Source: a virus. Taken from it: 42,020 nt of DNA. Within the stretch, counting starts at the first letter, position 1, and the number at the start of each line of letters is the position of its first letter. Below the pieces are notes generated by a model. It had not been told where the DNA came from. It searched no databases and saw only the letters and a list, made by a program, of their open reading frames with translations. The DNA lies in the IMG/VR virus record IMGVR_UViG_3300005613_003622, positions 1 to 42,020 of that record; one strand, given 5' to 3'. Made by a program: the position numbers and the translations under genes. Positions 1 to 29,490 of the stretch are shown piece by piece.

Positions 1-103
1 TAACATTACAATTTTTCATAATAGTTTTAGTTAAAACTTTTCCAAGACTACCTGTTCCTCCTGTTATTAATATTTCTTTATTAGACCAAAATGAATTATT
101 CAT
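1..103 (-). CDS. NAD(P)-dependent nucleotide-sugar dehydratase/epimerase, N-terminal 34 residues only (PseB-like)
   Basis: The gene starts at 103 and runs off the left edge. The visible residues begin MNNSFWSNKEILITGGTGSL, followed by GKVLTKTI. The GGTGSLG glycine-rich turn is the NAD(P)-binding motif of extended short-chain dehydrogenases, and the ITGGTGSxGK form is typical of UDP-GlcNAc 4,6-dehydratases (PseB/FlaA1, first step of pseudaminic acid synthesis). The start overlaps the acetyltransferase stop as ATGA, so the two are translationally coupled. Its place beside a GNAT and a NeuB-type synthase supports a nonulosonate role. With only the N-terminus visible, other sugar epimerases remain possible. 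Confidence 0.7.
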   Translation of the reverse strand, partial: MNNSFWSNKEILITGGTGSLGKVLTKTIMKNCNV

Positions 104-630
104 AATTTTATCCCTTTACTTTTATAATATTCACACCTTAACATAGAAGCTATGATAGAATCATAATATTTTCCATTCCAATATTTTCGCTGTCTTAAAA
201 CACCTTCCTTCATAAATCCTAATTTATTCCAAAATCCTTCAAATTTATTTGTAGTTTCATAAACTTCAATAAACAAACAATTCAATTTAAGGATGGTAAA
301 TGCATAATATAATAATTTTTTCACAGCAGCTTTTCCATATCCTTTTTCATAATAAGGAATTCCTATCAATAGACTTATTTCAGCAGAATTATTACTATAA
401 CAGATTTTATCAAGTCCACAATATCCAATAAATTCATTAGTTGTAGAATCATATATAAAAAAATATTTATCTTGCATTCCCATATTCTCAACCCATTTAC
501 TTTGATGATAAAAGCTTACTGGAGTATAAGATGTACTACGTAAAGATTCCATACATTTATTTCGCCATTTTGCTATTTCTAATAATTCTTCTCTTTTCTT
601 AGAAATAAGTTCTAATTTTATGTTATTCAT
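100..630 (-). CDS. GNAT-family N-acetyltransferase, PseH/RimJ-like
   Basis: 176 residues with the GNAT layout: an N-terminal strand and helix, the acetyl-CoA pyrophosphate loop around YYEKGYGKAAVKKLL (about 94-108), and the C-terminal FWNKLGFMKEGVLRQRKYWNGKYYDS block typical of RimJ/RimL-like and PseH-like enzymes. In pseudaminic/legionaminic pathways a GNAT acetylates the 4-amino group of the UDP-amino-sugar. It sits between the dehydratase (ATGA overlap) and the sigma factor gene (8-nt overlap), in the same block as a NeuB-type synthase. The function as a sugar N-acetyltransferase is inferred from context; a protein or small-molecule acetyltransferase is the alternative. Confidence 0.75.
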   Translation of the reverse strand: MNNIKLELISKKREELLEIAKWRNKCMESLRSTSYTPVSFYHQSKWVENMGMQDKYFFIYDSTTNEFIGYCGLDKICYSNNSAEISLLIGIPYYEKGYGKAAVKKLLYYAFTILKLNCLFIEVYETTNKFEGFWNKLGFMKEGVLRQRKYWNGKYYDSIIASMLRCEYYKSKGIKL

Positions 631-1375
631 TTAATAATATTTTCCCTTGTAATAATTTTCTTAATTTTGCTAAAGCATTTCTTTCTATTCTTAATATATC
701 TGTTATAGTTAAATTTAAAATTGTACTTATTACTGATAATGAATATGCAATAGTTTCATATAATCCATATTTCATAGTTATTATTGCATGTTCTTGATCA
801 TCCAATTTTTTTAGTGCGTCATATAATAATTGTTTATTTTTTTTGTCCATGATTTTATTTTCTATAAATTGTATAAAATTATCCTTTTCTTTATGTTTGA
901 TTAAATGTGTATTATGTATTATAGAATGATCTAAAAATTCTAATGATACTATTGGATTTTCTATTATATAATTAATACTACGTGCTTCATATATATCTTC
1001 TGTAATTTTATTCTTTAAAATTTCTTTTACAGAATATTTTTTTAATCTTTTAGCTCTATTAGCTTTACTAATTATATTTATAGGAATATGTACTTTGTAT
1101 TGTTCTTGTTTTAGAAATTTAAGAATTTTTTGTCTTATCCAATATACAGCACAATTAATAAAAAAAGTTCCTTTATTCATATCAAATTTTGCAATACTTT
1201 CTATTAATCCTAAATTTCCTTCTTGAATTAAATCATCATCAATATAAGAATTTTTTTTATATTGATTTACAATACCAATAACTAAATACATATAATGTTT
1301 TACAATTTTATCCCTAGATTCTATATTTCCAATTTGGGCTTGTTTTATATATTTATATAGTTCTTCCTCTTTCAT
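623..1375 (-). CDS. sigma-70 family RNA polymerase sigma factor
   Basis: 250 residues. Region 2 is clear at about 28-95: YKKNSYIDDDLIQEGNLGLI (core binding), then IAKFDMNKGTFFINCAVYWI (-10 recognition) and RQKILKFLKQ. Region 4 is at the C-terminus: ALKKLDDQEHAIITMKYGL, a helix-turn-helix, and IERNALAKLRKLLQ, the usual -35-binding end. Region 1.1 is absent, as in small alternative and phage sigmas. It probably redirects host RNA polymerase to phage promoters. It lies oddly inside the sugar gene block, overlapping the GNAT gene. No anti-sigma is seen nearby. Confidence 0.9.
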   Translation of the reverse strand: MKEEELYKYIKQAQIGNIESRDKIVKHYMYLVIGIVNQYKKNSYIDDDLIQEGNLGLIESIAKFDMNKGTFFINCAVYWIRQKILKFLKQEQYKVHIPINIISKANRAKRLKKYSVKEILKNKITEDIYEARSINYIIENPIVSLEFLDHSIIHNTHLIKHKEKDNFIQFIENKIMDKKNKQLLYDALKKLDDQEHAIITMKYGLYETIAYSLSVISTILNLTITDILRIERNALAKLRKLLQGKILLNE

Positions 1376-1394
1376 CCATTTTCACTCTCCTTTC

Positions 1395-2213
1395 TTAATA
1401 ATCTCTTAATCCTGAAGCACTTGCTCTTAATACCCTTTTCAATTCTGCGTCTTTTTTAAAAAAGTCATTATATTCTTTACCTTCACTTTTTTTCATTACT
1501 TTTACTGTTTCTATTACAGGTTTTATAATATTAATATTCCAACAATGACCAGAACCACTTTCCCATCCTTGATAATACACATCATCTAAATGAAATTCTA
1601 TATATTCAGCTCCATTTGCAACAGCTTGATATATTACACCAGGTTCAACAGTATGATCTGACCATCCTATATACCTTCCATAACAATGTTTCATCCATTT
1701 TATTGTCATTAGATTTACATCTTGATATCTAGTAGGATATTTAGATACACAATGAAATAATATTGTATTAAAAGGTAATTTAGAAATTAAATTTTTAACT
1801 TCATTCTCATTTGATACACAACCTAAAGATATCATCATAGGTAACTTAGTATTTACACATTTTTGTATTAAATCTTTTCTCATAATGTCAAAACTACTTA
1901 TTTTTAAAAAATCAACATAATTTTTTAAAACATCAACAGCTTCTAAATAAAAAGGAGAACATCCAAATTTAATTTTTAATTTATTACATTCTTTTTTTAT
2001 TTCAGGAATCCAATCAATAGGTAATTCCCTTTCTATTAGATTTTTTACAATTTCTTCAGGAGCATTTCTATATAATTGATTCCCTTTAAATAATTGAAAT
2101 TTAACTCCCCAACATCCGGCATTTTTTGCCGAACGAATTAAAGATAAACATTTTGTCAAATTTCCATTGTGATTAGAACCTATATCTGCAATAAATCTGA
2201 CATCATTATTCAT
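1395..2213 (-). CDS. NeuB/PseI-family nonulosonate synthase, lacking the SAF domain
   Basis: 272 residues matching the NeuB TIM barrel: IADIGSNHNG near the start, VKFQLFK, KISSFDI, ISLGC, HCVSKYPT, IGWSDHT and AEYIEFHLDD in order. The family condenses a 6-carbon N-acyl amino sugar with phosphoenolpyruvate to form sialic, pseudaminic or legionaminic acid. Cellular enzymes are about 340-350 residues and end in an antifreeze-like (SAF) domain that helps cap the partner active site. This one stops after the barrel, so it is a short form and may use a different or smaller acceptor. It overlaps the start of the downstream sugar genes' neighbour (membrane ORF) by 8 nt. Acceptor identity cannot be read from sequence. 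Confidence 0.85.
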   Translation of the reverse strand: MNNDVRFIADIGSNHNGNLTKCLSLIRSAKNAGCWGVKFQLFKGNQLYRNAPEEIVKNLIERELPIDWIPEIKKECNKLKIKFGCSPFYLEAVDVLKNYVDFLKISSFDIMRKDLIQKCVNTKLPMMISLGCVSNENEVKNLISKLPFNTILFHCVSKYPTRYQDVNLMTIKWMKHCYGRYIGWSDHTVEPGVIYQAVANGAEYIEFHLDDVYYQGWESGSGHCWNINIIKPVIETVKVMKKSEGKEYNDFFKKDAELKRVLRASASGLRDY

Positions 2214-2394
2214 TTATAAACTCCTTATCTGGTTTTAAAATTACTAATTTATAAACTTTAGCTTTATATTCTACATAATAGTTATCTTTAGAGCCCTTTA
2301 CTAATACTACATTATCTGGAGCAATTACTATAGATACTCCCATAATAAATCCTATTATAATAACCAAAATATAAACAGCAATATCTCCTATCAT
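2206..2394 (-). CDS. small single-pass membrane protein
   Basis: 62 residues. Residues 4-26 (DIAVYILVIIIGFIMGVSIV) form one strong membrane segment; the remaining 35 residues are charged and mildly beta-rich (VVLVKGSKDNYYVEYKAKVY). The stop overlaps the NeuB-type gene start by 8 nt, so translation is probably coupled. Not recognised as a family. Likely an inner-membrane phage accessory protein. Confidence 0.6.
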   Translation of the reverse strand: MIGDIAVYILVIIIGFIMGVSIVIAPDNVVLVKGSKDNYYVEYKAKVYKLVILKPDKEFINE

Positions 2395-2409
2395 TTTTCT
2401 TTCCTCATT

Positions 2410-2826
2410 CTATATTGTTTCAAAAACATTGAGAATATTATCTAAACGTAATTCTCTTTTCTTTTTATTATATGTATTTTCAACTAAAAAAGATCTTTCT
2501 TCTATGTCTATTTCTAAAATTTTACCCCATCCATAAGTTATTCCATCATCATATTTAACATAATGTCCAATTTGAAAATTATTCATATAAGAATCAAGCA
2601 TTTTATTATTTTCTTTATTATCAGGATCACACTCCCAAGTAGATATTATACCAAAGAATTCAGCATTAACATCCTCTGCTTGTTTCTCACACATATCACA
2701 AGCAATTTTTTCATTTGTAACATAAGCAATAGGACTTCTTGCTCCTTGAACATAGGGGTATATTACGGCAGTACCAAAAAGCAATACTTCATTTTTCATT
2801 TCTTCCCATACCCAAAATTTTATCAT
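2410..2826 (-). CDS. hypothetical protein with possible C-terminal SH3/Tudor-like segment
   Basis: 138 residues, not recognised. It has a CDMC cysteine pair in the N-terminal half (about 48-51) and a C-terminal block, IGHYVKYDDGITYGWGKILE then IDIEERSFLVE, that resembles a small SH3/Tudor-like beta barrel of the kind that binds proteins or nucleic acids. A second ATG nine codons in (MKNEVLLFG) has a GGGAAG just upstream and could be the true start. It lies between RNA ligase and the small membrane protein. Confidence 0.55.
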   Translation of the reverse strand: MIKFWVWEEMKNEVLLFGTAVIYPYVQGARSPIAYVTNEKIACDMCEKQAEDVNAEFFGIISTWECDPDNKENNKMLDSYMNNFQIGHYVKYDDGITYGWGKILEIDIEERSFLVENTYNKKKRELRLDNILNVFETI

Positions 2827-2850
2827 CTTATTAATCTTTCATGTATTTCA

Positions 2851-3777
2851 TTAAATTGTCTCTATATTATCCATAGCCTTTTTTAATAATTGATCTTTAT
2901 ACCATTCTGGTAATCCTCTTGTAGAGTTTCTTAAAATATCTTTTCCAAATTCTTTCCATAACCATTCTTTTATTTCTTCTTTACATTCCTCAGCTAAATC
3001 TATATTTACTTCTTTCATTAATTTTCCAATATCACGTGGATCTTCTTCTAATTCTTCTCTATCTCGTAAATGTTGAACAGCTTTGTTCCATCTAGCTTCT
3101 GTTCTATATTTATCTTTATATATTTCAAATCTACCTTTTCTAGTATGATCTTTTTTCCAATTCTTGTCATGTACTTCTTTATAAGCTTCAGATACATATT
3201 TTGCACATACAATAGGAAAATGTTTTCCTCCGATTAGTAATTGTTTTTCATAATTTTTTACTACTATCCCTTCTATTTTTTGACCACCCAATATACTAAC
3301 TGATTCTAATAGTTCTCTTAATTTTTCTTTATCTTCTAATCTTCCTTGAAATAATAATGGAACAGCTTCAAATTCTAATTTTTCAGCATATTCTAGAATA
3401 CTATTATAGTTCATAAAAGTATCAGTTTGTTTGTCTTTTACACCGAATAATATTATATTATTTTTTGGAGTTCTGTCATATGCTAAAACATTATGTTTTG
3501 GCTTTTGCAAATACTCTCCATAAAAATATATATTATTTGGTAACAAATTTCTTGAAAATAATCCTATTACATATGATACAGCATTTCGAAACATCTTATC
3601 ATGTTTTTCTACATAAATCTCATGTCCACTACTTCCTGTATGCATTGTTAATATATTATCTATATATCCAAATCCAAACTGAGATCCATCAACTTTTTCT
3701 GTAATTTCAACTTCATCTTCAAATATATTTAATACATTTTTATTACCTAAAGCAAATATTTTCGGAAAACAACCCAT
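2851..3777 (-). CDS. RNA ligase (ATP-dependent, Rnl-type nucleotidyltransferase)
   Basis: 308 residues with the covalent nucleotidyltransferase motifs in order: motif I EKVDG at 27-31 (adenylated lysine K28), a motif III-like segment around NNIYFYGEYL, motif IV IEGIVVKNY, and motif V VCAKYVSEAYKE. The family seals RNA nicks using ATP; in phages it counters host tRNA-cutting defences or repairs mRNA. Length and motif spacing suit Rnl2-like enzymes. A separate NAD-dependent DNA ligase is present at 5600-7372, so this is not the replicative ligase. It has a strong AAGGAGAG site before ATG. No polynucleotide kinase is seen nearby. Confidence 0.85.
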   Translation of the reverse strand: MGCFPKIFALGNKNVLNIFEDEVEITEKVDGSQFGFGYIDNILTMHTGSSGHEIYVEKHDKMFRNAVSYVIGLFSRNLLPNNIYFYGEYLQKPKHNVLAYDRTPKNNIILFGVKDKQTDTFMNYNSILEYAEKLEFEAVPLLFQGRLEDKEKLRELLESVSILGGQKIEGIVVKNYEKQLLIGGKHFPIVCAKYVSEAYKEVHDKNWKKDHTRKGRFEIYKDKYRTEARWNKAVQHLRDREELEEDPRDIGKLMKEVNIDLAEECKEEIKEWLWKEFGKDILRNSTRGLPEWYKDQLLKKAMDNIETI

Positions 3778-3860
3778 TTTATCTCTCCTTTTAAAAATTA
3801 GGATATTAACTTTCTAGTTATAATATTAGATATATCTTGATATTTATTCATAATATATTT

Positions 3861-4082
3861 TTATCCATTTATTAATGGGGGATTAGGAATAGGTATCCAA
3901 TGCGTCGGTGTCATAAAAGAATATCTATTATGAATATCCATCCATAAATCATTATCCATGTATGTGCAATATACTATGTCATATTCCCATGGAACATTTG
4001 AATATTTATGCAAAATAGCAATTAATACTCGTTGTCCTTTTTGTGGTGTCTCTTCTGTTACTTTTTTCCATATATTATTCAT
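3861..4082 (-). CDS. DUF551-like phage protein
   Basis: 73 residues: WKKVTEETPQKGQRVLIAIL at the N-terminus and THWIPIPNPP at the C-terminus are the two hallmarks of the DUF551 family, common short phage and prophage proteins of unknown function. It overlaps the upstream PRTase-like gene by 8 nt. No function is assigned. Confidence 0.8.
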   Translation of the reverse strand: MNNIWKKVTEETPQKGQRVLIAILHKYSNVPWEYDIVYCTYMDNDLWMDIHNRYSFMTPTHWIPIPNPPLING

Positions 4083-4647
4083 TCTTCAATTTCCTTTTAA
4101 AATCATTTATAGTATAAATTGATATAGGTTGGTAAGCTTTTTCAATTAATTTTTCTTTACTACCATCTAAAGGATCAATTAATGAAATAATTTCTATAAC
4201 ATTTGTTTTTTGTTTAATTAACGAATCAATACCTTTTAGAACTAAATCTCCATTTAATACAGCATTTAAAATTATTACATTATCTTTTTTTCTTAAGTTC
4301 CCATATGTTCTCATTGTAATTTTTTTTGAATCTATAATAGAAGTAATTTTAGACATTAAAATAGGTTTTAAATTCCATTGTTTATAATAAGCAAAAGAAA
4401 CAAATGACATAATTGAAGCAAAAGATAAAACATCCATCCCTACTATACTATCTATTGATAATATTTCTGGAATTTGACCTTTTAATGTTTCTATTATTGT
4501 TTCTGATATAATATCATTAAATAATTTAATAGTATTTGTATCAATTATTGAATGTCTTATAATTAATTCTAGATAATTTTTAGAATCAAAAAAAATTTCA
4601 TTCTTTAATCTTAGTATATCTAATAATTGTTGTTTTTTATTATTCAT
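4075..4647 (-). CDS. phosphoribosyltransferase-fold protein (orotate PRTase-like), degenerate PRPP loop
   Basis: 190 residues. The layout resembles orotate phosphoribosyltransferase: IVGMDVLSFASIMSFVSFAY corresponds to the first substrate loop, and VIILNAVLNGDLVLKGIDSL followed by VIEIISLIDPLDGSKEKL corresponds to the PRPP-binding strand-loop-helix. In active enzymes that segment reads close to VLIVDDVxTTGGS with two acidic residues and TTG. Here the acidic pair is replaced by NA and the glycine-threonine loop is altered, so catalysis is doubtful. It may be a binding or regulatory relative. Ends with YTINDFKRKL, like the OPRTase tail. It overlaps its neighbours by a few bases. Confidence 0.5.
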   Translation of the reverse strand: MNNKKQQLLDILRLKNEIFFDSKNYLELIIRHSIIDTNTIKLFNDIISETIIETLKGQIPEILSIDSIVGMDVLSFASIMSFVSFAYYKQWNLKPILMSKITSIIDSKKITMRTYGNLRKKDNVIILNAVLNGDLVLKGIDSLIKQKTNVIEIISLIDPLDGSKEKLIEKAYQPISIYTINDFKRKLKNE

Positions 4648-5003
4648 AATTTTTCCATATTTTGTATTAATTCTTCAACTATTGTTTCATGCATGTCATT
4701 TGCAATATTATCAGAATTATCTGAGAATTCTGAAATTGACCAAGGTGATTTAAAAGATATTTCTTTAGTAACATCTGCATCCATATAGTTACTGTCTAAT
4801 TTAGCTTGAAAAGCTCTCGTTTCATAATACATTTGATAACCTATTGTCTCGAATTCCCCTTCCTTATTACGATGTTCCATTAATCCTACAGTAGATACTA
4901 CTATTTTATCCTTTCCGTTTTCTATTAATGTATTTCGTCTAAACCTACATCTATTAGAATAAACATAATGTCCTCCCCATCCTCTTTCCGTTCGTTTAAC
5001 CAT
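4644..5003 (-). CDS. hypothetical phage protein
   Basis: 119 residues, not recognised. It starts MVKRTERGWGGHYVYSNRCR, with repeated aromatic and arginine residues, and a middle that looks like beta strands (IVVSTVGLM, IGYQMYYETRAFQAKLD), then an acidic C-terminal helix. Soluble, no signal or membrane segment. It overlaps both neighbours by 4-8 nt, so it is part of one translationally coupled chain. Confidence 0.55.
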   Translation of the reverse strand: MVKRTERGWGGHYVYSNRCRFRRNTLIENGKDKIVVSTVGLMEHRNKEGEFETIGYQMYYETRAFQAKLDSNYMDADVTKEISFKSPWSISEFSDNSDNIANDMHETIVEELIQNMEKL

Positions 5004-5229
5004 TGTTCTTCTTTCTCATCTTTTCTTTATTTTTTATTTTAGATTGTATATAATTTGGTTTATGCTTGATTAACCATTCTAAGAGATCTGCTATAGAAAT
5101 AAATGTCCAATTGTAACCTGCTTCATTATATGCTTTTGCCCAAAGAGTCCCATCCTTATCCTCTTCTATCTCTACAGATGGATCTATGCCTTTTATACCA
5201 CAATTAATTGTTGTTTTATGTACAATCAT
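4996..5229 (-). CDS. hypothetical small protein
   Basis: 77 residues, not recognised. The N-terminal half is acidic (GIKGIDPSVEIEEDKDGTLW), the C-terminal end is strongly basic (KIKNKEKMRKKNNG). It is the first gene after the repeated spacer at 5241-5316, and an AAAGGTAAATAAAA ribosome site precedes ATG. Confidence 0.5.
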   Translation of the reverse strand: MIVHKTTINCGIKGIDPSVEIEEDKDGTLWAKAYNEAGYNWTFISIADLLEWLIKHKPNYIQSKIKNKEKMRKKNNG

Positions 5230-5240
5230 TTTTATTTACC

Positions 5241-5316
5241 TTTTTTTAAAAAATTAATTATTTAATTGCCTTATATTATCTTATCGGTTAAAAAAAATTT
5301 TACAACGGTTTTATTT
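5241..5316 (-). repeat. 76-bp direct repeat, copy 1 (gene end plus leader)
   Basis: Near-identical to 18149-18226 in the same orientation. On the minus strand both copies read AAAATAAAACCGTTGTAAAA, an A/T stretch, AACC, then ATAAGATAATATAAGGC. Each copy covers the last codons (KIKPL and stop) of one gene and the spacer before the next small gene. The genes on either side are otherwise unrelated, so the block behaves like a mobile or gene-converted regulatory segment. Confidence 0.75.
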
Positions 5317-5542
5317 TTTTTTCTGTAATGTATTTATTTGTTAGGGGATAATTAAACCATGCCCTAATTGTTTCATATGAATAGGGATAATTAATTGCTA
5401 TATTATGACATTCCCTGTCTGTTAAACGGGGATAACTAGTATTTATAACAAATCCAGCAAGTATCATGGCTCTTCTTATATCAATGTGTTGTATTATAGA
5501 TATATTAATTATTTTTCTAGCATTTTTTTCCATTAATGTCAT
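5300..5542 (-). CDS. hypothetical small protein
   Basis: 80 residues, basic, not recognised. Predicted mostly helical: RKIINISIIQHIDIRRAMIL, then a segment resembling a helix-turn-helix (LTDRECHNIAINYPYSYETI) which could bind DNA, though this is weak. Its last codons, KIKPL and stop, lie inside the direct repeat also found at the end of the GT9 gene at 18209. Confidence 0.5.
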   Translation of the reverse strand: MTLMEKNARKIINISIIQHIDIRRAMILAGFVINTSYPRLTDRECHNIAINYPYSYETIRAWFNYPLTNKYITEKKIKPL

Positions 5543-5599
5543 TATATCTTTTTTTTTCTCTCCTTCCTCTCTTTCTTATAATACTAAGCTAATCTTTAT

Positions 5600-7372
5600 T
5601 TATATCATTGAACGAATTTCTATTTTTAATTTTTTAGCTTTTTTTATTTTTGAAGAATTACTATTCATATCACTACAAATTAAAACTGTTAAATCTTTTG
5701 TAACATTTTTTACAATTTCATATCCACAACTTCTAGCCATTGCTTCATAATAAGATCTTTTTTCTTTTAATTTTCCAGTAAAACAAATTGTTTTTGATTT
5801 TTTAGTTTTCTTTTCTTTTATTTTTAAAGTAGATAATAAATTACTAATATAATTTCTTTTTTCTGCAATACTTTGATAAATCCTAATAGCTATCTTATAT
5901 CCAATACCTTCAATAGATTCGAATTCATTAACAGTCATATTTTGGATTTGATTAAAACTTTTATTTGTTAATAAAATCTTACTCATTCTAACTCCGACAC
6001 CTTCAATATTAAGAGAAGCAAGTATTTGCCAATCATATACACCTTCTTTTATTATTTTTTGTATCTCATTATATAAATTTCTTGAAGAAATTTCAGCAAA
6101 ACCTTCTAATTTTATTATATCATCTATTGTTAATTTTAATATATCAATTATATTACAAACACCCAAATCAATAAGCTTTTTTATAGTAGGCTTACCCAAA
6201 TTTTCTATTCCTAATCTAATAACAGAATCATATAATGATATTAATAATTTCCCTTCACAACTTCCATTAGTACAATATAATTCTGGTTTTCTATAATCAA
6301 TAGGACAATTGCATATAGGGCAATAATCTAATTTTATTTCTTTTCTATCCCTTGTTGCATATATTACTTTTTGCACATTAGGGATCACATCTCCAGATCT
6401 TTCAATTACTAACATATCATTTATATGGATATCTTTATCTAAAATATATTTATAATTATGAAGATTTACATTAGAAATAAGTACCCCACCAATCATAACT
6501 GGATCAATTTTTCCAACAGGTGTTAATTTTCTTTTTCCAACTTGCCAAATTACTTCCCTTAAAATACTTTTTTCTGTAGGATTTGTAAATTTTAAAGCCA
6601 TTTGTCCATGTGGATGATGAGAGGTATTTCCCAAAGAATTAGAATATCCTGTATCTACTAACTTGAAAACTATACCATCAGCAGGAAATTCTGAATTTTG
6701 AAATACTTCAATTAATTCTTTCCAATTTGATTCTGTAAATTTTTCAAGTTCATTTAATTTTACTCTCTTAGATATGAAATTAAAAGGAACTAAAGTTAAA
6801 ATTTTTCCAAATGAGGTATCAATATCGTTTCTATGTAATATTCCAGAACATGTATTCCTAGATGTTTTTACTTTTTCATTTTTCTTTAATATTTTATATT
6901 TATCAAATTCTGATTTAGTAAATACTATCTCACCTCTGATATTATCATTTTTTGATAAAATTTTTATAATAGGTAATTTATTTGTAATATTTTCTCCAAC
7001 ATGACCATCACCCCTAGTAGAAAGGATCCCATTACTATAATCAGCACCACAACCATCTAATTTTAATTGAATTAAAAATTCCTCATTTTTATCCCTAGCT
7101 ACCTTTCTACACCATTCTAATATTTTTTCAATAGAATATACCTTATTTAAAGATAACATAGGAATTTTATGTTTTATTTTTAATGAGGTATTAATAGTAA
7201 ATTCATCTAATAATTTATTATTAGGAGATAATTTTCTTAATTTTTCAATTAATTTATCATATTCTATATCTGAAATTTCTGAATTATTTTGATTCCAATA
7301 TAAATCATTATGATATTTTATTGTATTTATTAATTCTTTTATTCGAATTTTTTTGTTTTCCATTTTACACAT
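5600..7372 (-). CDS. ligA: NAD-dependent DNA ligase LigA
   Basis: 590 residues. Domains in order: Ia-type N-terminal helices (YHNDLYWNQNNSEISDIEYD), adenylation domain with KLDG motif (K104 nucleophile), downstream STRGDGHVGENIT, and MALKF, OB fold around IGGVLISNVNLHN and VIERSGDVIPNV, a four-cysteine zinc finger (CPIC...CTNGSCEG), helix-hairpin-helix repeats (LEGFAEISSRNLY; IEGIGYKIAIRIY), and a C-terminal BRCT domain (KTICFTGKLKEKRSYYEA). Cellular LigA is about 670 residues, so this is a compact but complete enzyme. It seals nicks during replication. Two ATGs, three codons apart, are both possible starts; the gene follows the aminotransferase stop by 6 nt. Confidence 0.95.
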   Translation of the reverse strand: MCKMENKKIRIKELINTIKYHNDLYWNQNNSEISDIEYDKLIEKLRKLSPNNKLLDEFTINTSLKIKHKIPMLSLNKVYSIEKILEWCRKVARDKNEEFLIQLKLDGCGADYSNGILSTRGDGHVGENITNKLPIIKILSKNDNIRGEIVFTKSEFDKYKILKKNEKVKTSRNTCSGILHRNDIDTSFGKILTLVPFNFISKRVKLNELEKFTESNWKELIEVFQNSEFPADGIVFKLVDTGYSNSLGNTSHHPHGQMALKFTNPTEKSILREVIWQVGKRKLTPVGKIDPVMIGGVLISNVNLHNYKYILDKDIHINDMLVIERSGDVIPNVQKVIYATRDRKEIKLDYCPICNCPIDYRKPELYCTNGSCEGKLLISLYDSVIRLGIENLGKPTIKKLIDLGVCNIIDILKLTIDDIIKLEGFAEISSRNLYNEIQKIIKEGVYDWQILASLNIEGVGVRMSKILLTNKSFNQIQNMTVNEFESIEGIGYKIAIRIYQSIAEKRNYISNLLSTLKIKEKKTKKSKTICFTGKLKEKRSYYEAMARSCGYEIVKNVTKDLTVLICSDMNSNSSKIKKAKKLKIEIRSMI

Positions 7373-7378
7373 TATTTT

Positions 7379-8716
7379 CTATTTCAATTCCTCTATATTA
7401 TTATACACTTTCCAAAATGCATCAATTATATATTGAATTTGCAAATCATCTAATGGTAAACTATGATACATATTAGTAAAAAGAGTATTTTTCCATAAAT
7501 TTTCAGTTACAGGACATATCCCTTTTCTATATATTCTTTTACTATCTTTCCATGGATAAAATGTTTGGCCATATAATAATGTATGATCAAACAATGGAAA
7601 TAAATACAATGGTTTAATATATCCACATCCTAACATAGGTTTATCGGGTCTTCCTTTTTCTCCTGGTAATTCTGCTGCAACAGCTTTTATGAATAAATCT
7701 CTATGAATTCTAGATTCTTCTTGAATATATCTCATTGTATGGACATAATAACTATGTGTATTATCAGGGGGAATAAAAGTTCCTAAAAGTAATGGAATAC
7801 GTTTTATCCCTTCCCATATTTTTTCAACATTAATTATTCTACGATATATAAAATCTTTTAATTTATCTAATTGATAATATAAAATAGCAGCTTGAATTTC
7901 AGTCATTCTCATGTTAAAACCTAACATATTATTATGAGGACTAAATCCAAAATCTAGATTATATCTATCACTTCCCATATCATTATTTACAGCTTCTGCA
8001 TGATTTCTAATCATCTGACATCTAAGAGCTAATACTTCATTATCTGTAACAATCATTCCACCTTCACCAGCAGTAAGATGTTTCCCTTGTGTAAAAGAAA
8101 AACAACCAATATCTCCTAAAGTACCTGTATATTTATCTTTATATTTTGATCCAATTGCTTGAGCAGCATCTTCAATAATATATAAACCATAATCATTAGC
8201 AATTTCTTTTATTTTATCATAATCAGCAGGTTGTCCAAATAAATCAACTACAATAATTGCTTTTGTTTTTTTTGTTATTTTTTCTTTTATACTATCAGGA
8301 TCTAAGCAATAAGTAACTGGATTAATATCTGCAAATATTGGAATAGCATTCCATAATAGAGGAGCTGTTGCTGAACAAGACATAGACCAAGGAGTTACTA
8401 TCACTTCATCTCCAGGAGCCAAACCTATAGCACCACATGCTATTTGTAATGCACTTGTACAACTATTAACTGAAATAGCTTTTTTAATATTAAAATACTT
8501 TTCCCATTTTCTTTCTAATTTTTGTACCCATTCTCCGCCATAAAATCCAGGTGATTCTTGACTCCAATTACCACGAAAACTGGAAAGATTAACCTCACCT
8601 AATGCTGCTTTTTCCATTAATTGTTTAACTACATCAATTTCTTGCCAATTTATACTTAATTGATGAGGGAATGGATTTGTTGTAACCATTTTCCCGCCAT
8701 TAATTGCTAATTTCAT
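7379..8716 (-). CDS. DegT/DnrJ/EryC1/StrS-family PLP-dependent sugar aminotransferase
   Basis: 445 residues. SCTSALQIACGAIGLAPGDE and VIVTPWSM form the PLP phosphate site; VDLFGQPADYDKI, IIEDAAQAIGSKYK and FSFTQGKHLTAGEGGM follow, with K212 as the Schiff-base lysine. The family transfers an amino group from glutamate or glutamine to a keto-sugar nucleotide, as PseC/LegC do after PseB/LegB. At 445 residues it is longer than PseC (about 380), with an N-terminal extension and an insert more like the AHBA/scyllo-inosose branch, so the exact substrate is open. A good AAAGGAAAG site precedes ATG, with a TATAAT about 50 nt upstream. Confidence 0.88.
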   Translation of the reverse strand: MKLAINGGKMVTTNPFPHQLSINWQEIDVVKQLMEKAALGEVNLSSFRGNWSQESPGFYGGEWVQKLERKWEKYFNIKKAISVNSCTSALQIACGAIGLAPGDEVIVTPWSMSCSATAPLLWNAIPIFADINPVTYCLDPDSIKEKITKKTKAIIVVDLFGQPADYDKIKEIANDYGLYIIEDAAQAIGSKYKDKYTGTLGDIGCFSFTQGKHLTAGEGGMIVTDNEVLALRCQMIRNHAEAVNNDMGSDRYNLDFGFSPHNNMLGFNMRMTEIQAAILYYQLDKLKDFIYRRIINVEKIWEGIKRIPLLLGTFIPPDNTHSYYVHTMRYIQEESRIHRDLFIKAVAAELPGEKGRPDKPMLGCGYIKPLYLFPLFDHTLLYGQTFYPWKDSKRIYRKGICPVTENLWKNTLFTNMYHSLPLDDLQIQYIIDAFWKVYNNIEELK

Positions 8717-8764
8717 TTTTCTTTCCTTTTTATTACACTAGTTTTTGTTGGGTGACATAATGAT

Positions 8765-8784
8765 ATTATAATTTGTCAACAAAT
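8765..8784 (-). promoter_or_regulatory. candidate -10 box with flanking operator-like palindrome
   Basis: On the minus strand ATTTGTTGACAAATTATAAT contains a TATAAT hexamer (8765-8770), about 50 nt before the aminotransferase start, just after ATTTGT-TG-ACAAAT, a 6-bp-arm dyad that could bind a dimeric repressor. No good -35 at 16-18 bp spacing is seen, so this is tentative. Confidence 0.3.
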
Positions 8785-8810
8785 ATATAATATTTCAATT
8801 ATCTTTTTCA

Positions 8811-8915
8811 TTAGTGGGGTATTCCATTATAAATTAAATAAAATGCAAATAAATAAATAATAAAAACTAATATTATCCAAAATTTATCTTTTATTTCTTT
8901 CCATATTTTTTTCAT
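8811..8915 (-). CDS. 34-residue single-pass membrane peptide
   Basis: A short frame starts at ATG 8913-8915 behind AAAGGAAT at good spacing and encodes MKKIWKEIKDKFWIILVFII and YLFAFYLIYNGIPH. A basic N-terminus precedes about 18 hydrophobic residues, giving an N-in membrane topology. It lies in the gap between the aminotransferase and oxidoreductase genes. Function unknown; similar tiny hydrophobic peptides are common in phages. Confidence 0.5.
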   Translation of the reverse strand: MKKIWKEIKDKFWIILVFIIYLFAFYLIYNGIPH

Positions 8916-8937
8916 AATATTCCTTTTTATTTAGTTT

Positions 8938-9044
8938 ATTGGTTATCTTATGCAGATATATAGGTCTTTAACCTATGACCAAAACATTATTACTTTCTAT
9001 ATAAATGCATTTATTTATAATTTTATTTTGTTAAGATAACCAAT
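8938..9044. other. structured intergenic element closed by a perfect 13-bp inverted repeat
   Basis: ATTGGTTATCTTA at 8938-8950 is exactly repeated in inverse at 9032-9044. Inside are ATAGGT-CTTTA-ACCTAT, paired arms CAAAA/TTTTG with ATTAT/ATAAT, and a 14-bp palindrome ATAAATGCATTTAT. Together they can fold into a closed multi-branch structure of about 107 nt on either strand. It lies directly downstream of the oxidoreductase stop, so it could be a transcript end, a processing signal or a small RNA. Confidence 0.55.
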
Positions 9045-9049
9045 TTTTT

Positions 9050-10069
9050 TTAAATCCCTAATTTTTTAAATACTTCATGAACATTTATAGCATTTCTATC
9101 AGTACATAATAATTTACTTCCTTTATGAATAAAATCAAATGCATTCTTTGTTAATAATGATAAAGAAGATGTTAAGGATGTCTCTTCTGTATATATAGGT
9201 TCTGTAGACATTGAATCATAATTTCCATATGTTAATTCTGGTCTTGCCAGATAAGACATATATCTTTTTCCATGATCTGTAAATACATGTTTAGATTTCT
9301 TAGCATATATAGTTAAATCAAATATATCATAATCTCTCCCATCTACCGGAACTAGAAATACATGAGGACATTGTTCATATGAAAGATAAGCAGCATAAGT
9401 AGGATCTTCTTTGGAAAAATCACAGAAAGAATTATTTTTATTTAATAATTGACCCCCCAAACATTTCCCAAATAAATAATTAAAAAGATCTATTCCATGA
9501 CTAGCATCTCTTTTAAACCCTCTAGTATAAGTTAAAACAGCATTATATATAGGATCTAAATCTCTATTGAATATTTTTCTTTGTAATTTTTGAATAGTAG
9601 GATCAAATCTCCTAGAATAATCAATCATAATAGGAACATTAATTGATTCAAAATTAATACTAATATTCAAAGCTTCTTCATAATTAGTTGTAAAAGGTTT
9701 CTCTACAATCATTAATTGAGGTTTATATGAATTATTTGTTTTTGTATTTAAAATACATTCATTTAATAATTTATAAATTTCCCATAAAACTTCCTCATGA
9801 TATTTAGTATTAACTGCTATAACTATTATTTCTGGAAAAAAATCTGTAATAGCAAATTTTAAATTTGTACAATAAAATCCATTCCATTTTATAGCAGCTT
9901 GTTTTGCTTTATTAATATTTTTGTCATAAAATATTAATTTATTTGTATTAGAATTGTTATAAAAAGCATGAGCTAAAGTTAAAATATTTTTTCCATTTGG
10001 TCTATCATATTTATCTTCCTTTAACCCACCTATACTTCCACATCCTATTATCAGAATATCATTTGACAT
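9050..10069 (-). CDS. Gfo/Idh/MocA-family NAD(P)-dependent oxidoreductase
   Basis: About 339 residues from the chosen start. The N-terminus DILIIGCGSIGG is the dinucleotide-binding turn; IIVIAVNTKYHEEVLWEIY and MIVEKPFTTNYEEALNI give the conserved EKP motif, and IDYSRRFDPT and GIDLFNYLFGKCLGGQ the substrate domain. Members oxidise or reduce sugars and sugar nucleotides. Start ATG 10067-10069 is preferred because AGGGGGAG lies 6 nt upstream; a longer reading from 10111 has no such site and would overlap the gene upstream. Placement between the aminotransferase and cytidylyltransferase suggests a sugar-nucleotide step; the exact substrate is unknown. Confidence 0.82.
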   Translation of the reverse strand: MSNDILIIGCGSIGGLKEDKYDRPNGKNILTLAHAFYNNSNTNKLIFYDKNINKAKQAAIKWNGFYCTNLKFAITDFFPEIIVIAVNTKYHEEVLWEIYKLLNECILNTKTNNSYKPQLMIVEKPFTTNYEEALNISINFESINVPIMIDYSRRFDPTIQKLQRKIFNRDLDPIYNAVLTYTRGFKRDASHGIDLFNYLFGKCLGGQLLNKNNSFCDFSKEDPTYAAYLSYEQCPHVFLVPVDGRDYDIFDLTIYAKKSKHVFTDHGKRYMSYLARPELTYGNYDSMSTEPIYTEETSLTSSLSLLTKNAFDFIHKGSKLLCTDRNAINVHEVFKKLGI

Positions 10070-10088
10070 CTTTATTCTCCCCCTTCTC

Positions 10089-10319
10089 TTATGTTGAATT
10101 ACATTCTCCACCCAAAGCCTCTACCAACATATCCACTATCTCTGGCAAATATCTTTCATCCCCCTTATTAGAAAATTCGATTAATTCAGCATCTATATCT
10201 AATTCATCAGGCTCTAAATGACCTTTCCAAACTCCTCCTTCTTGATGGTTATAATAACATATTGTAAAATTACCTGTTTTCATTAATTTAATTATTTCTT
10301 TTCTCTGTAAAGCATCCAT
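10089..10319 (-). CDS. hypothetical small acidic protein
   Basis: 76 residues, acidic, not recognised: FTICYYNHQEGGVWKGHLEP then an acidic run and a helix (YLPEIVDMLVEALGGE). Its ATG overlaps the preceding stop by one base (TAATG), so it is coupled to the gene upstream. Soluble, no membrane or signal segment. Confidence 0.5.
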   Translation of the reverse strand: MDALQRKEIIKLMKTGNFTICYYNHQEGGVWKGHLEPDELDIDAELIEFSNKGDERYLPEIVDMLVEALGGECNST

Positions 10320-10600
10320 TATTTCTTTTTTCCTTTTACATTTAAATCCTCTAAAGAGAATTGTTCTCTAATCATTTCTTTAAAATTATCAATACTTTTT
10401 TTAATACCTTCTAAAGTCGAAATTGGTAAAGTTCTTAAATGAAAATGTAATAACTCTTCGAATAAACAATTCATATTATTATAATAACCTAAAACTAAAA
10501 GTGTTTCTTCTTTTGTTTTTTTATTATATGTTATTTTATTCAGAATATAATTATGTGAATCATTAGTAATTATAAATTTTTTTCCAATTTTTATTTTCAT
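10319..10600 (-). CDS. hypothetical small basic protein
   Basis: 93 residues, lysine-rich, not recognised. N-terminus looks beta-rich (MKIKIGKKFIITNDSHNYIL), C-terminus is helical and ends GKKK. It overlaps the DUF3310 gene by ATGA and the next gene by one base. Confidence 0.5.
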   Translation of the reverse strand: MKIKIGKKFIITNDSHNYILNKITYNKKTKEETLLVLGYYNNMNCLFEELLHFHLRTLPISTLEGIKKSIDNFKEMIREQFSLEDLNVKGKKK

Positions 10601-10902
10601 TTATTATTCCTTTTCTTACTTTTTATTTCTCTATTTATATACCAAATTGCTTTTTTTAAATCTTCTATTTTATCATTCTTTAAATCTGCCCTCCAAATAT
10701 ATTTAATAGCATTTCCTAAACAGAAGCTCATATGTTCTGTAATCTGAATACATTCTATCCCACTAGGATGATTATTGTAATGTTTAGGGTGATTCACATT
10801 GTCATATATAATTTTTCCAGTATTAAAATCCAAATAATCTGGTATTAGTTTACCATTCCCATCTTTTGTTGGCCGATTTAAATTATTTTTTATTTTTTCC
10901 AT
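10597..10902 (-). CDS. DUF3310-family protein (phage nucleotide kinase-like annotation)
   Basis: 101 residues carrying the DUF3310 signature: VNHPKHYNNHPSGIECIQIT, LGNAIKYIWRADLKND and IEDLKKAIWYINREI. The family is widespread in tailed phages and often labelled nucleotide kinase after T7 gp1.7, though that activity is not shown for most members. This copy has about 35 extra N-terminal residues before the domain. Confidence 0.85.
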   Translation of the reverse strand: MEKIKNNLNRPTKDGNGKLIPDYLDFNTGKIIYDNVNHPKHYNNHPSGIECIQITEHMSFCLGNAIKYIWRADLKNDKIEDLKKAIWYINREIKSKKRNNK

Positions 10903-11174
10903 TTTTTATCACCCTTTTTAAATTCAAATAAAGTCATTTTCTCTTCATCTTTTTCCATAGGTATAAATTGACAATATACTCCTTTATTAGTAAATGTAAA
11001 ACCAATACCTTTATTAATATCTTTTGAAATACATTTTATAGTATATTCTTGTCCATCTACAAAATTTAATGTATCTGTTTCTATAAAACCTCTTGCCCCA
11101 TCTTTTCTACCTGTCTTATAAAAATAATAACATAAATATGTAATAAATATTAATCGAATAATTATTGAAATCAT
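10890..11174 (-). CDS. membrane-anchored hypothetical protein
   Basis: 94 residues. Residues 2-18 (ISIIIRLIFITYLCYYF) form an N-terminal membrane anchor followed by a positive patch (KTGRKDGARG), then a soluble beta-rich part. AGGAGAAGG lies just before ATG, inside the end of the upstream cytidylyltransferase gene. Not recognised. Confidence 0.55.
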   Translation of the reverse strand: MISIIIRLIFITYLCYYFYKTGRKDGARGFIETDTLNFVDGQEYTIKCISKDINKGIGFTFTNKGVYCQFIPMEKDEEKMTLFEFKKGDKKWKK

Positions 11175-11951
11175 TTATCCTTCTCCTGCTATTTTAGCTT
11201 TGATATTTGAATTAATTTTTTGTAAATTAGGATTTACTCTTATAAATTGAATAACATCTTTTATAGAAAAATTATTAAAGTTTTTAAATTCTTCAAAAAT
11301 AATTTGTAATAATTCATAATCCTCCTTAGTATCTAGTGTGATTCTCATTTCTGGATAATTAAATATTTTTGGAGCAGGATAATTACCTATTTTATAATCA
11401 TTTGGAAATTGCAAAATATTCCATCCTGTATGTTGTTTATGTTTTTCATTAGTTATTTTATGATAAACACTAGATAAAGCATCCAATGTATATACTTGTA
11501 TATCACATCCATCCGGCCATGTTCTTTTTACTATATTTGAATAATAATCTAAATTATTATCAACTAATTTTTCTATAAATAAATCTATGTAATAAGAATC
11601 AACTAAAGGACAATCTGCTGTAATATCTATAATGATATCTGGAAGATTTTTATCTATTTTTATTGTATATGCAGCATTTAATACTCTAAATATTACATCA
11701 TTCATACTTCCTTGAAAAATAAGAGCATAATCTTTCCATATTCGCTGTCTCCAATTCATAATAATATCTTTATTTTGTAGTGTCTTTGGAATAGCAATGA
11801 CTGTTTTATCTACATATTTTGAATTAGAAATTCTTTCAATTATCCATTGAAGTACAGGTTTTCCAGCTAAATCTAATAAAACTTTTCCAGGTAATCTAGT
11901 ACTTTCCATACGAGCTTGAACAATTACCAAAATACGTTTCTTTTTATACAT
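11175..11951 (-). CDS. SpsF/acylneuraminate-type cytidylyltransferase
   Basis: 258 residues. The N-terminus IVQARMESTRLPGKVLLDLA and GKPVLQWIIERI is the nucleotidyltransferase signature of the SpsF/CMP-sugar synthase group; DIIIDITADCPLVDSYYID carries the metal-binding acidic residues, and MRITLDTKEDYELLQIIFEE the C-terminal block. The family activates sugars, including nonulosonates, with CTP. With the NeuB-type synthase it would complete a route to an activated nine-carbon sugar. AAGGAAAT precedes ATG. It is the first gene after the inverted repeat at 11971-12140. Confidence 0.85.
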   Translation of the reverse strand: MYKKKRILVIVQARMESTRLPGKVLLDLAGKPVLQWIIERISNSKYVDKTVIAIPKTLQNKDIIMNWRQRIWKDYALIFQGSMNDVIFRVLNAAYTIKIDKNLPDIIIDITADCPLVDSYYIDLFIEKLVDNNLDYYSNIVKRTWPDGCDIQVYTLDALSSVYHKITNEKHKQHTGWNILQFPNDYKIGNYPAPKIFNYPEMRITLDTKEDYELLQIIFEEFKNFNNFSIKDVIQFIRVNPNLQKINSNIKAKIAGEG

Positions 11952-16841: not shown

Positions 16842-17657
16842 TTATTTTCCTAATCTTTGCTTCACCACATCTAATTCAAAATCATAACAATGCAAACTTT
16901 TACAAGAAAATGATACTGGTCCAGGTTTTACATTTGGTAATTGATCTGCTATATATTCATTTAATAAGATGAATCCTCCCATATTAACTGGAAATCCACT
17001 ATACAAATCCCAACTTCTATATATTACATTAGTAATTAAATAATGATTTACTACTCTAAAATCTAATAATCTTAAACAAGGGGTAGTTCCTCTTTTTGTT
17101 TCATCTGTTTGTAATTGTATTACAATACCTTTTTCTCTAAAACATTTAGGACATATAGCCCTTCTATATATTCTAGAATATTCACCACATTCAGGACATT
17201 TCATATATTTTGTATCATAAGCAAGACAAGAATCTGAATCACCCACCATTATAGCACAATGTTCATTTCCATATCCATTAGTTTTGAAATGATTAATAAT
17301 CCATTCTAATTGATTAGTTGGACATATATCATTTTTTCCAACTATCCAACTAGCATATTTATAATGTTCATTTTTACTTAATATATTATTCATTAGATAA
17401 TCCGAAAAATAAAAATCTATATCTTCGTCAGTAGTAGGTCTTGGTAAACTAGATCCTTCTGGCATTAAAGGTGCTAAGGGTCGAGTATGTGGTTGGGAAA
17501 TGAATCCAGAAACAAAATCAAAAGCTACTCTATCATGTCCCATAAAACTACCTGACGAAATTTTATATTTTCTTCCATTTTTATATAGTTGATATAAAAG
17601 TTGATACCAAGTATCATCAAGAGTTGTAGTATGTATAAATACTGGTTTAAACTTCAT
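16842..17657 (-). CDS. thymidylate synthase-family protein with inserted zinc ribbon
   Basis: 271 residues. The C-terminal part matches ThyA-fold enzymes: TTPCLRLLDFRVVNHYLITN, VIYRSWDLYSGFPVNMGGFI, LLNEYIADQL and a final helix. C194 aligns with the catalytic cysteine, but the usual following histidine is leucine and the Q of QFR is D. A four-cysteine zinc ribbon (CPEC at 154-157, CPKC at 169-172) is inserted just before the catalytic strand, which is unusual. Family members methylate or hydroxymethylate dUMP or dCMP with folate. It could make normal dTMP or a modified pyrimidine; the altered residues leave this open. Confidence 0.75.
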   Translation of the reverse strand: MKFKPVFIHTTTLDDTWYQLLYQLYKNGRKYKISSGSFMGHDRVAFDFVSGFISQPHTRPLAPLMPEGSSLPRPTTDEDIDFYFSDYLMNNILSKNEHYKYASWIVGKNDICPTNQLEWIINHFKTNGYGNEHCAIMVGDSDSCLAYDTKYMKCPECGEYSRIYRRAICPKCFREKGIVIQLQTDETKRGTTPCLRLLDFRVVNHYLITNVIYRSWDLYSGFPVNMGGFILLNEYIADQLPNVKPGPVSFSCKSLHCYDFELDVVKQRLGK

Positions 17658-18148: not shown

Positions 18149-18226
18149 TTTTTAAAAAAATTATTTAATTAACTGCCTTATATTATCTTATAGGTTAAAA
18201 AGAAAATTTTACAACGGTTTTATTTT
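18149..18226 (-). repeat. 76-bp direct repeat, copy 2 (gene end plus leader)
   Basis: Same sequence and orientation as 5241-5316, differing at a handful of bases and small A/T-run indels. It covers the last codons (KIKPL, stop) of the GT9 gene and the spacer up to the 43-residue peptide gene. Shared core on the minus strand: AACC(G/T)ATAAGATAATATAAGGCA. Confidence 0.75.
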
Positions 18227-19438: not shown

Positions 19439-19450
19439 TTTTTTTACCAA

Positions 19451-28462: not shown

Positions 28463-29490
28463 ATATAGTTTCTAATTCCGATATTCTTATTATTATAAAA
28501 TAATGATTCATTTTTTGCATTTTTATGTTCATATTTTTTATATTTTTTTAAATGGATTTTTAATTTTAAAAAAGCATCTTCTTTAGAAGAATTTAATTTT
28601 ATTTTTGAAAGAAGTCCTTGTCTAAATCCCCCAAAAAAATTACATTTATAACAAGGACGCATAATTCTATTTTTGTTTAATAGAAAATATCTAGCTATAT
28701 TAAATATCTCACTATTCCATATATCTTTTAAACTACCATCTTCAGGAAATTTACCAATAATAAATTCATGTCTCCAATCTACACAACATATTGGAATTGT
28801 TCCATCATGATGAAAAACTAATTCTCTAAATGGTCTTACACATTTTTTAATTAAAGAACTTCTTAATGGTAAGATTCCATATTTTAATAAATTCTTTTCA
28901 TTACTATTTCCTGCATGATTTTCAATAGTTCTTTGTATTTTTTTAGCTAACATATTAGATAAATCATCTGTATCTAATATTATTTTTATTTTATTTCCAT
29001 TTTTATTATAAGAATATGGATGATAATTACAATTTTTATCATAATAATAAAAATATTTAGCTGATTTATTATTTTTACAAAGTTTTAGTAATTCTTTTCG
29101 TTTAGTATAAGTATCTACTACCAAAATATTTAAACCATACTTAAACATTTCATCTAAAATAGATGGATATTTTAATAAATGTAATCCATTTGTAGCTAAT
29201 TGTATTTGAGCTCTTGGAATATTTTTTCTTAATAATTTTATAATAGTTAATAATTTTGGATGTAAAGTAGGTTCCCCATGCATAGCTAATTCTATTCTAC
29301 CTTTGTTTATCCAATTATTAAATTCTATAGATAATTTTTCTATTAATATTGGATCAATAAATTTTATATTTCTATCTTTTTTATTTTTCCAAATGCTATT
29401 TATCCCACAAAAATCACACATCCTATTACAACCTTCTACTAATTCTAATTGTAATGCATGAGGATTTTTAATTTTATTTATAATATTCAT
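28459..29490 (-). CDS. radical SAM/SPASM-type enzyme
   Basis: 343 residues. CNRMCDFCG (C21, C25, C28) is the SAM-binding [4Fe-4S] motif; GRIELAMHGEPTLHPKLLTI and IQLATNGLHLLKY are typical barrel segments. C-terminal CVRPFRELVFHHDGTIPICC and CYKCNFFGGF give the auxiliary cluster region of SPASM/twitch enzymes. Substrate unknown. It sits in a row with a glycosyltransferase and a second radical SAM gene, beside the polymerase, so a nucleic-acid modifying role is a reasonable inference. AAAGGAT precedes ATG. Confidence 0.85.
   Translation of the reverse strand: MNIINKIKNPHALQLELVEGCNRMCDFCGINSIWKNKKDRNIKFIDPILIEKLSIEFNNWINKGRIELAMHGEPTLHPKLLTIIKLLRKNIPRAQIQLATNGLHLLKYPSILDEMFKYGLNILVVDTYTKRKELLKLCKNNKSAKYFYYYDKNCNYHPYSYNKNGNKIKIILDTDDLSNMLAKKIQRTIENHAGNSNEKNLLKYGILPLRSSLIKKCVRPFRELVFHHDGTIPICCVDWRHEFIIGKFPEDGSLKDIWNSEIFNIARYFLLNKNRIMRPCYKCNFFGGFRQGLLSKIKLNSSKEDAFLKLKIHLKKYKKYEHKNAKNESLFYNNKNIGIRNYI

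Follow-up and report, generated by a model that had tools for sequence, protein, structure and literature searches.

The DNA analyzed here is a 42,020-base fragment of an uncultivated virus (IMG/VR record IMGVR_UViG_3300005613_003622), and the whole of this stretch will be called the window. Between its left edge and position 11951 lies a set of genes related to those of nonulosonic acid biosynthesis. We propose, with a probability of roughly 0.6, that they belong to a phage-encoded module for protein O-glycosylation, only part of which falls inside the window, and in which a sugar of the nonulosonic type, activated with cytidine monophosphate (CMP), would be attached to protein by a Maf-family transferase. 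All are read from the minus strand, and all are intact except the PseB-like open reading frame (ORF), which is cut by the window edge:

11175-11951, minus strand: SpsF-type (CTP_transf_3) cytidylyltransferase of 258 residues, the first gene of the module (Pfam PF02348, E 9e-24)
9050-10111, minus strand: NAD-dependent dehydrogenase of the Gfo/Idh/MocA family (Pfam E 1e-4), with a GTG start at 10111 and a more likely ATG start at 10069
7379-8716, minus strand: DegT/DnrJ aminotransferase of 445 residues, beginning MKLAINGG (E 2.6e-83)
1395-2213, minus strand: NeuB-family synthase of 272 residues without SAF domain (NeuB E 1.1e-42)
100-630, minus strand: GNAT N-acetyltransferase of 176 residues (E 6e-12)
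103-1, minus strand: start (34 residues, MNNSFWSNKEILITGGTGSLGKVLTK...) of a PseB-like short-chain dehydrogenase/reductase (SDR), whose top NCBIfam match is PseB (E 1.4e-5)

Genes of other kinds are interposed:

623-1375, minus strand: sigma-70-family protein, between NeuB and GNAT (Pfam Sigma70_r2, E 5e-12; r4, E 3e-6)
2851-3777: RNA ligase, an unrelated phage gene between DegT and NeuB
5600-7372: NAD-dependent DNA ligase, another unrelated phage gene between DegT and NeuB

Small phage genes are also inserted in the gap between DegT and NeuB, and the sigma-70-family protein is outside the pathway. An earlier note, made from the letters alone, had listed a dehydratase start, a GNAT, a NeuB-type synthase, a sugar aminotransferase, a Gfo/Idh oxidoreductase and an SpsF-type cytidylyltransferase, spread out with phage genes between them. 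Profile matches were obtained for every member of that list, and the two ligases and the sigma-70-family protein are among the genes in between.

The synthase and its partner enzymes

A profile scan detected no SAF domain in the window NeuB, as the earlier note had stated, and the protein scores 124 bits against the PseI model, whose cut-off is 340. Its structural model is a complete TIM barrel (predicted local distance difference test, pLDDT, 92.2; predicted template-modeling score, pTM, 0.89). The top structural match is 6ncs, a 290-residue NeuB-family structure from Leptospira (Z 32.0, root-mean-square deviation 3.1 over 262 residues); the PseI structure 8h2c gives Z 30.3 (deviation 2.0 over 243 residues), and meningococcal NeuB gives Z around 29. 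Matches to 3-deoxy-D-arabino-heptulosonate 7-phosphate (DAHP) synthases (Z 24) and 3-deoxy-D-manno-octulosonate 8-phosphate (KDO8P) synthases (Z 22.6) rank below these three.

The residues that line the active site of meningococcal NeuB are listed in PMC6795526. Mapped onto the window protein, with the meningococcal residue given first, the correspondences are E25 to D10, K53 to K38, Q55 to Q40, K129 to K104, E134 to D109, N184 to S157, Y186 to Y159, S213 to S185, H215 to H187, E234 to E206, H236 to H208 and D247 to E218, and the residues retained in the window enzyme are K38, Q40, K104, Y159, S185, D186, H187, E206, H208 and E218. Among the meningococcal positions, K53, E134, H236 and D247 are included as known active-site residues of the family. 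The sole mapped meningococcal residue that lacks a counterpart is Arg314, which belongs to the SAF domain and is essential in the meningococcal enzyme. Two invariant residues near the C-terminus, Gly268 and Arg270 (within DGLRP in most members), are candidates to replace it.

In a phylogenetic tree, the window NeuB falls among SAF-less proteins of viruses and bacteria, separate from the full-length NeuB and PseI proteins, with supports of 92 and 91% in the Shimodaira–Hasegawa-like approximate likelihood ratio test (SH-aLRT); like all trees in this work, it was built by a quick method with SH-aLRT as the only support, and both values are below the star level of 95. The bacterial part of the SAF-less clade includes Shewanella proteins of the SfmA type. 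Both the placement in this clade and the model, with its complete barrel and its catalytic residues kept or conservatively replaced, are favorable to a nonulosonic route, and the window NeuB is predicted to condense phosphoenolpyruvate (PEP) with a 6-deoxy-hexosamine.

Even shorter synthases, of about 200-230 residues, are found at 17 viral loci (for instance L104, 11272-11928, and L122, 15269-15916). These mini NeuBs are likewise modeled with the NeuB barrel (pLDDT 92.9), closer to meningococcal NeuB (Z 22.5) than to KDO8P synthase (Z 16.6). Their catalytic residues (Lys/Gln, Lys, Tyr, Ser-Asp-His, Glu/His and Asp) are predicted to be conserved, and they are possibly the smallest enzymes of the family. 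At the other extreme, the NeuB position of L117 is occupied by a PseI above the curated cut-off (473 versus 340 bits), and that of L090 by another full-length NeuB.

The aminotransferase differs from the one expected in pseudaminic acid synthesis. The window DegT scores 203 bits against the PseC model, whose cut-off is 423; the contigs contain one match each to this model, none of them above the cut-off. In the tree, phage DegT proteins and their DegT-II relatives from bacterial flagellar islands are split from all PseC proteins with 100% SH-aLRT support. The lysine that binds pyridoxal phosphate, in the motif FTQGKHLT-GEGG, is invariant. Among solved structures, the DegT profile is nearest to scyllo-inosose aminotransferases, perosamine synthase and KdnA rather than to PseC, with 2c7t and 5k8b matching well above the PseC structure 2fn6. 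DegT is always paired with the Gfo/Idh dehydrogenase, in which the Rossmann glycines, the EKP motif (with the catalytic Lys) and the HxxD motif are invariant. The closest solved profile of the dehydrogenase is inositol 2-dehydrogenase, and the Pfam match is stronger in relative L003 (E 7e-13) than in the window copy.

In two bacterial genomes, a single flagellar island contains flagellin, Maf, SpsF, Gfo/Idh, DegT-II and GNAT, followed by PseG, PseI, PseB and a separate PseC. The Gfo/Idh and DegT-II pair thus probably adds an amino group, which would be achieved by oxidation and transamination. The phage module resembles an island of this kind from which PseC and PseG are missing.

PseH is the top NCBIfam match of the window GNAT (E 3e-13), with 50 bits for a cut-off of 93. 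Full-length PseB relatives match PF02719 with E 2e-92, and their catalytic residues D138, K139, Y147 and K151 are invariant. The window SpsF scores 21 bits against the PseF model (cut-off 206) and 58 bits against KdsB subfamily models; it is predicted to activate the sugar acid with CMP. The pseudaminic or legionaminic-type route proposed in the earlier note is thus upheld as a route of the nonulosonic acid type, but not in its narrower sense, as the aminotransferase is not a PseC and the synthase falls outside the PseI and NeuB equivalog groups.

The module in other viral contigs

A search with NeuB alone recovered six viral loci with 37-46% identity in which the same genes are contiguous (L006 is a near-duplicate of L005), as well as a small fragment, L008. 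A wider set was found when alignments of DegT, Maf and Gfo/Idh were used as queries, and genes were counted with profiles built in this analysis; many of the viral contigs are fragments. A Maf gene is present in 46 non-duplicate viral contigs, 26 of which contain all seven components, and in 17 contigs the order is exactly SpsF–Gfo/Idh–DegT–NeuB–PseB–GNAT–Maf on one strand. SpsF orthologues stand first in the module of relatives, as in the window. Dozens of other viral contigs thus contain these genes in compact form and in a largely conserved order, so their grouping is not a matter of chance.

The arrangement closest to that of the window is found in 3300013120_000602 (L090), which reads DegT, sigma-like protein, GNAT, PseB, second GNAT and Maf. 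The window GNAT (100-630) corresponds to the additional GNAT located after the sigma-like ORF of L090. By analogy, the remainder of PseB, a second GNAT (GNAT2) and Maf are predicted to lie to the left of base 1 in the window phage. The ORF that precedes GNAT in L090 encodes 244 residues, and its likeness to the sigma-70-family protein was seen by sequence only.

The module-bearing contigs are phage, and two lineages can be described as follows:

(i). Lineage 1 carries SbcCD-, RecA- and SSB-like genes upstream of the module, as judged from sequence and synteny with the window. Downstream, on the opposite strand, there are baseplate and tail genes (PHROG baseplate families). In about 21 contigs, a gene convergent with Maf encodes a tail-fiber-like protein with a conserved N-terminus (MHRTEG...DGPPGT) and a hypervariable remainder; the L005 member has a Tail Collar domain (E 3e-20).

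(ii). Lineage 2 comprises about ten contigs, in which Maf is followed by genes that resemble terminase, portal and capsid genes by sequence. This lineage also has a gene resembling N-formyltransferases, and its NeuB proteins have about 215 residues.

The genes recurrently inserted in the module encode a formyltransferase-like protein in 8 contigs, a BNR-repeat protein in 6 contigs, and small proteins. The BNR-repeat protein, which is sialidase-like, lies between NeuB and PseB in L005 (10848-11951) and five other contigs. The Formyl_trans_N protein is found within the module in L122 (14308-14868) and about eight other contigs of lineage 2, and suggests that an N-formyl group replaces N-acetyl on the sugar or accompanies it.

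Other gene sets were noted as well. L134 (IMGVR 3300038608_000027) has terminase- and portal-like ORFs near a legionaminic-type set made of a full-length NeuB, a PtmE-like CBS/nucleotidyltransferase, Gfo/Idh, DegT-II, a second DegT, GNAT and a WbpG-like amidotransferase. L137, L138 and L140, three viral contigs that are almost identical, have two full-length NeuB genes in tandem (346 and 359 residues) and a PseC-like DegT; theirs is a different phage nonulosonic cluster. L116 (IMGVR 3300038724_000006) is filed in IMG/VR and contains a complete Pse pathway, Maf and flagellin; its genes suggest a bacterial flagellar island classed as viral rather than a virus.

Transferase, acceptor and alternative explanations

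The earlier note had pointed beyond the left end of the window for a transferase; none is visible in the window, and the one found in relatives is Maf. Its MptE-like domain was matched with E around 1e-42 in all six relatives scanned, and Maf_flag10_N with E values from 3e-11 to 0.009 in five of them (3e-11 and 1e-7 in two contigs, weaker in the others), L003 being the one in which it is not listed. In lineage 1 the protein ends in TPR repeats. Maf also has a profile match (E 5e-10) to the solved chain 5mu5, which we take to be a Magnetospirillum Maf. In bacteria, the TPR domain of Maf-1 selects the flagellin acceptor, according to work cited in PMC13317340.

A tentative pathway can be drawn from these elements: gene content and order, folds and catalytic residues are observations, and substrates, product, acceptor and the Maf of the window phage itself are inferred. 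PseB would produce a UDP (uridine diphosphate)-4-keto-6-deoxy-hexosamine, to which DegT, Gfo/Idh and GNAT, together with the N-formyltransferase-like protein in lineage 2, may add amino groups and acylate them. The SAF-less NeuB would then join the free sugar to PEP, giving a nonulosonic-type acid, and SpsF would yield the CMP-sugar. Finally, Maf, expected by homology just to the left of base 1, would transfer the sugar to Ser/Thr residues of a protein, most likely the tail fiber or another virion protein. No Flagellin_N match was found in 30 phage records, the window included. Because of this lack of a phage flagellin gene, and because a variable tail-fiber-like gene faces Maf in lineage 1, a virion protein such as the tail fiber is a more likely acceptor than host flagellin. 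Since Maf points to protein O-glycosylation, the uses that the earlier note had offered for the sugar, mimicry of host surface glycans or decoration of DNA, lose ground.

Several observations weigh against the proposed module. No virion gene was recognized in the window, which ends before Maf and all virion genes. Removal of UDP before the NeuB step is unexplained, because PseG, NeuC and LegG are all absent: PseG (TIGR03590) is missing from the window and from 46 of 47 other viral records, often fragments, with L116 as the sole exception, and no hydrolyzing 2-epimerase of the NeuC/LegG kind (PF02350, Epimerase_2) was found in 30 records. Nor did the recurrent genes inside the module include another candidate UDP-sugar hydrolase. 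The earlier note had correctly reported the lack of a PseG-type hydrolase in the window; this lack is, however, a property of the whole module and not an effect of the window edge. The phage DegT is not PseC, and in lineage 2 Maf precedes terminase and portal genes instead of lying beside tail fibers. In addition, the Desulforudis metagenome bin that contains L007, the only candidate host genome, has no PseG match, with binning and completeness uncertain; because of that uncertainty the hint of a Desulforudis host is weak.

One alternative is that the same module makes the CMP-sugar and phage Maf modifies the flagellin of the host, thus changing its motility or preventing superinfection by flagellotropic phages. 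The Maf enzymes known so far act on flagellin, the nearest bacterial relatives of Gfo/Idh and DegT-II sit in flagellin islands, and the Desulforudis bin does encode flagellin. The lack of flagellin genes in phage contigs is neutral in this respect. However, Maf adjoins tail-fiber-like genes in lineage 1. In addition, PMC11339370 reports that a Maf enzyme accepts several CMP-sugars and that Mafs do not glycosylate non-cognate flagellins, which makes a broad role on host flagellins demanding. We regard this explanation as unlikely, although it is the chief competitor of a virion acceptor.

The gap in the pathway admits another reading, to which we give the same low credit: the phage may supply bottleneck enzymes only, with host PseC and PseG completing a pseudaminic or legionaminic route whose product goes to host surface glycans. 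Either the host provides PseG and PseC, or the route is different. Both enzymes are missing from the phage, whereas the bacterial islands with the shared module do have them. Yet the phage relatives own a transferase, Maf; DegT-II is a regular member of the module; and the candidate host bin lacks PseG, as noted above. Auxiliary supply by the phage is also compatible with a virion or flagellin acceptor.

Somewhat less probable still is a split into two routes, with only NeuB and PseB in nonulosonic synthesis and the other four enzymes (Gfo/Idh, DegT, GNAT and SpsF) producing an unrelated activated compound, either an amino sugar or an inosamine-like amino cyclitol. The profiles of DegT and Gfo/Idh, nearest to scyllo-inosose aminotransferases and inositol 2-dehydrogenase, would agree with such a division, as would the bacterial islands, which hold PseC beside DegT-II and in one case two SpsF genes. 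On the other hand, the seven genes form a single unit in phages, and most contigs have just one SpsF and one Maf.

Attachment of the sugar to modified bases of the phage genome is highly improbable: the window does encode a TET-associated glycosyltransferase (TAGT; 29502-30320, minus strand, E 2e-15) and a Thymidylat_synt match (16842-17657, minus strand, E 2e-6, confined to the C-terminal part), both of them possible DNA hypermodification genes, but Maf is a protein transferase, and the link to DNA modification, weak because these genes are absent from most module-bearing contigs (TAGT in 3 of 30, thymidylate synthase in 2 of 30), was rejected for lack of co-distribution, and with it the sugar for DNA suggested in the earlier note.

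Each enzyme family of the module is known; as far as can be told, what is new is that phages combine them, that PseC and PseG are missing and that the synthases are trimmed. The nearest known systems are the bacterial Maf flagellin islands with Pse or Leg genes (Campylobacter, Aeromonas caviae maf1, Clostridium; PMC13317340), which share the cluster of PseB-type, DegT, GNAT, NeuB-family, cytidylyltransferase and Maf genes; the two islands found here also share the Gfo/Idh–DegT-II pair. The phage module differs in having tail, terminase or capsid genes nearby, in lacking flagellin, PseC and PseG, and in its SAF-less or mini NeuB.

SfmA of Shewanella oneidensis (SO_3261, in sfmABCDE; PMC3765264) resembles the window NeuB: SfmA-type proteins have 270-290 residues, lack SAF, are encoded near maf and belong to the same clade. 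S. oneidensis flagellin carries a nonulosonic acid although clear orthologues of PseG, PseH, PseI and PseF are lacking, and deletion of SfmA returns flagellin to its unmodified mass; SfmA may act in the synthesis of either the inner sugar or the outer residue (PMC3765264). The sfm operon also contains genes for a thiamine pyrophosphate enzyme, an SDR, a methyltransferase and an ATP-grasp protein, none of them conserved in the phage module. SfmA-bearing bacteria were considered as direct donors of the whole module and discarded, as the phage-type Gfo/Idh was found in none of 43 genomes tested.

The sps genes of Bacillus subtilis for CMP-legionaminic acid (PMC7439481) share the UDP-linked route, with PseB-like SpsM, the DegT protein SpsC, the GNAT SpsD, the NeuB protein SpsE and SpsF. 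Unlike the phage module, they include the SpsG hydrolase and a full-length SpsE, and lack Gfo/Idh and Maf. Pairs such as KdnA/KdnB or scyllo-inosose aminotransferase and inositol dehydrogenase resemble the phage pair in that a dehydrogenase and a DegT enzyme turn a hydroxyl into an amine; the phage pair differs in being linked to NeuB and PseB genes. In mycobacteriophages, phage-encoded glycosyltransferases glycosylate virion proteins using common sugars, whereas the sugar proposed here is of the nonulosonic type, synthesized by the phage itself and attached by a Maf-family enzyme.

Among 50,697 deposited phage records, no Maf match was found, NeuB gave two distant matches and DegT gave distant matches only. 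None of the PHROGs families covers the NeuB, Gfo/Idh, SpsF or Maf proteins, and Foldseek searches against viral models returned only distant barrels and one NeuB-like protein of an uncultured member of Caudovirales. Neither a phage Maf nor a phage nonulosonic module was found described in the openly licensed papers searched (CC0, CC BY, CC BY-SA). A wider claim may be advanced with more reserve than the O-glycosylation module itself, and we hold it to be somewhat short of an even chance: that these phages form a widespread, undescribed class which makes its own nonulosonic sugar by a shortened route, with a SAF-less or ~215-residue NeuB and no UDP-hydrolase, and in which Maf O-glycosylates tail fibers. 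If so, phages of at least two genome layouts would encode sugar-making and protein-glycosylating machinery hitherto tied to bacterial flagella, with the first non-flagellar Maf acceptors and a new means of shielding or tuning receptor-binding proteins. Naturally trimmed NeuBs (272 residues in the window, about 215 in relatives) would also cast doubt on whether the SAF arginine (Arg314) is required, and a concrete biochemical question is raised, namely how a UDP-sugar is opened without PseG.

Additional genes were observed elsewhere in the window, all on the minus strand. A glycosyltransferase of family 9 (heptosyltransferase-like; 18209-19450, E 1e-12) is a sugar gene outside the module. At 25856-28462, a uracil-DNA-glycosylase-like N-terminus is fused to a family A DNA polymerase, as judged from motifs identified by eye. 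Two radical SAM proteins, one with a SPASM domain, are encoded at 28459-29490 and 30958-32403, and a DUF2284 protein adjoins the second. Finally, a class II (B12-dependent) ribonucleotide reductase lies at 37446-40124 (Pfam barrel domain, E 6e-116).

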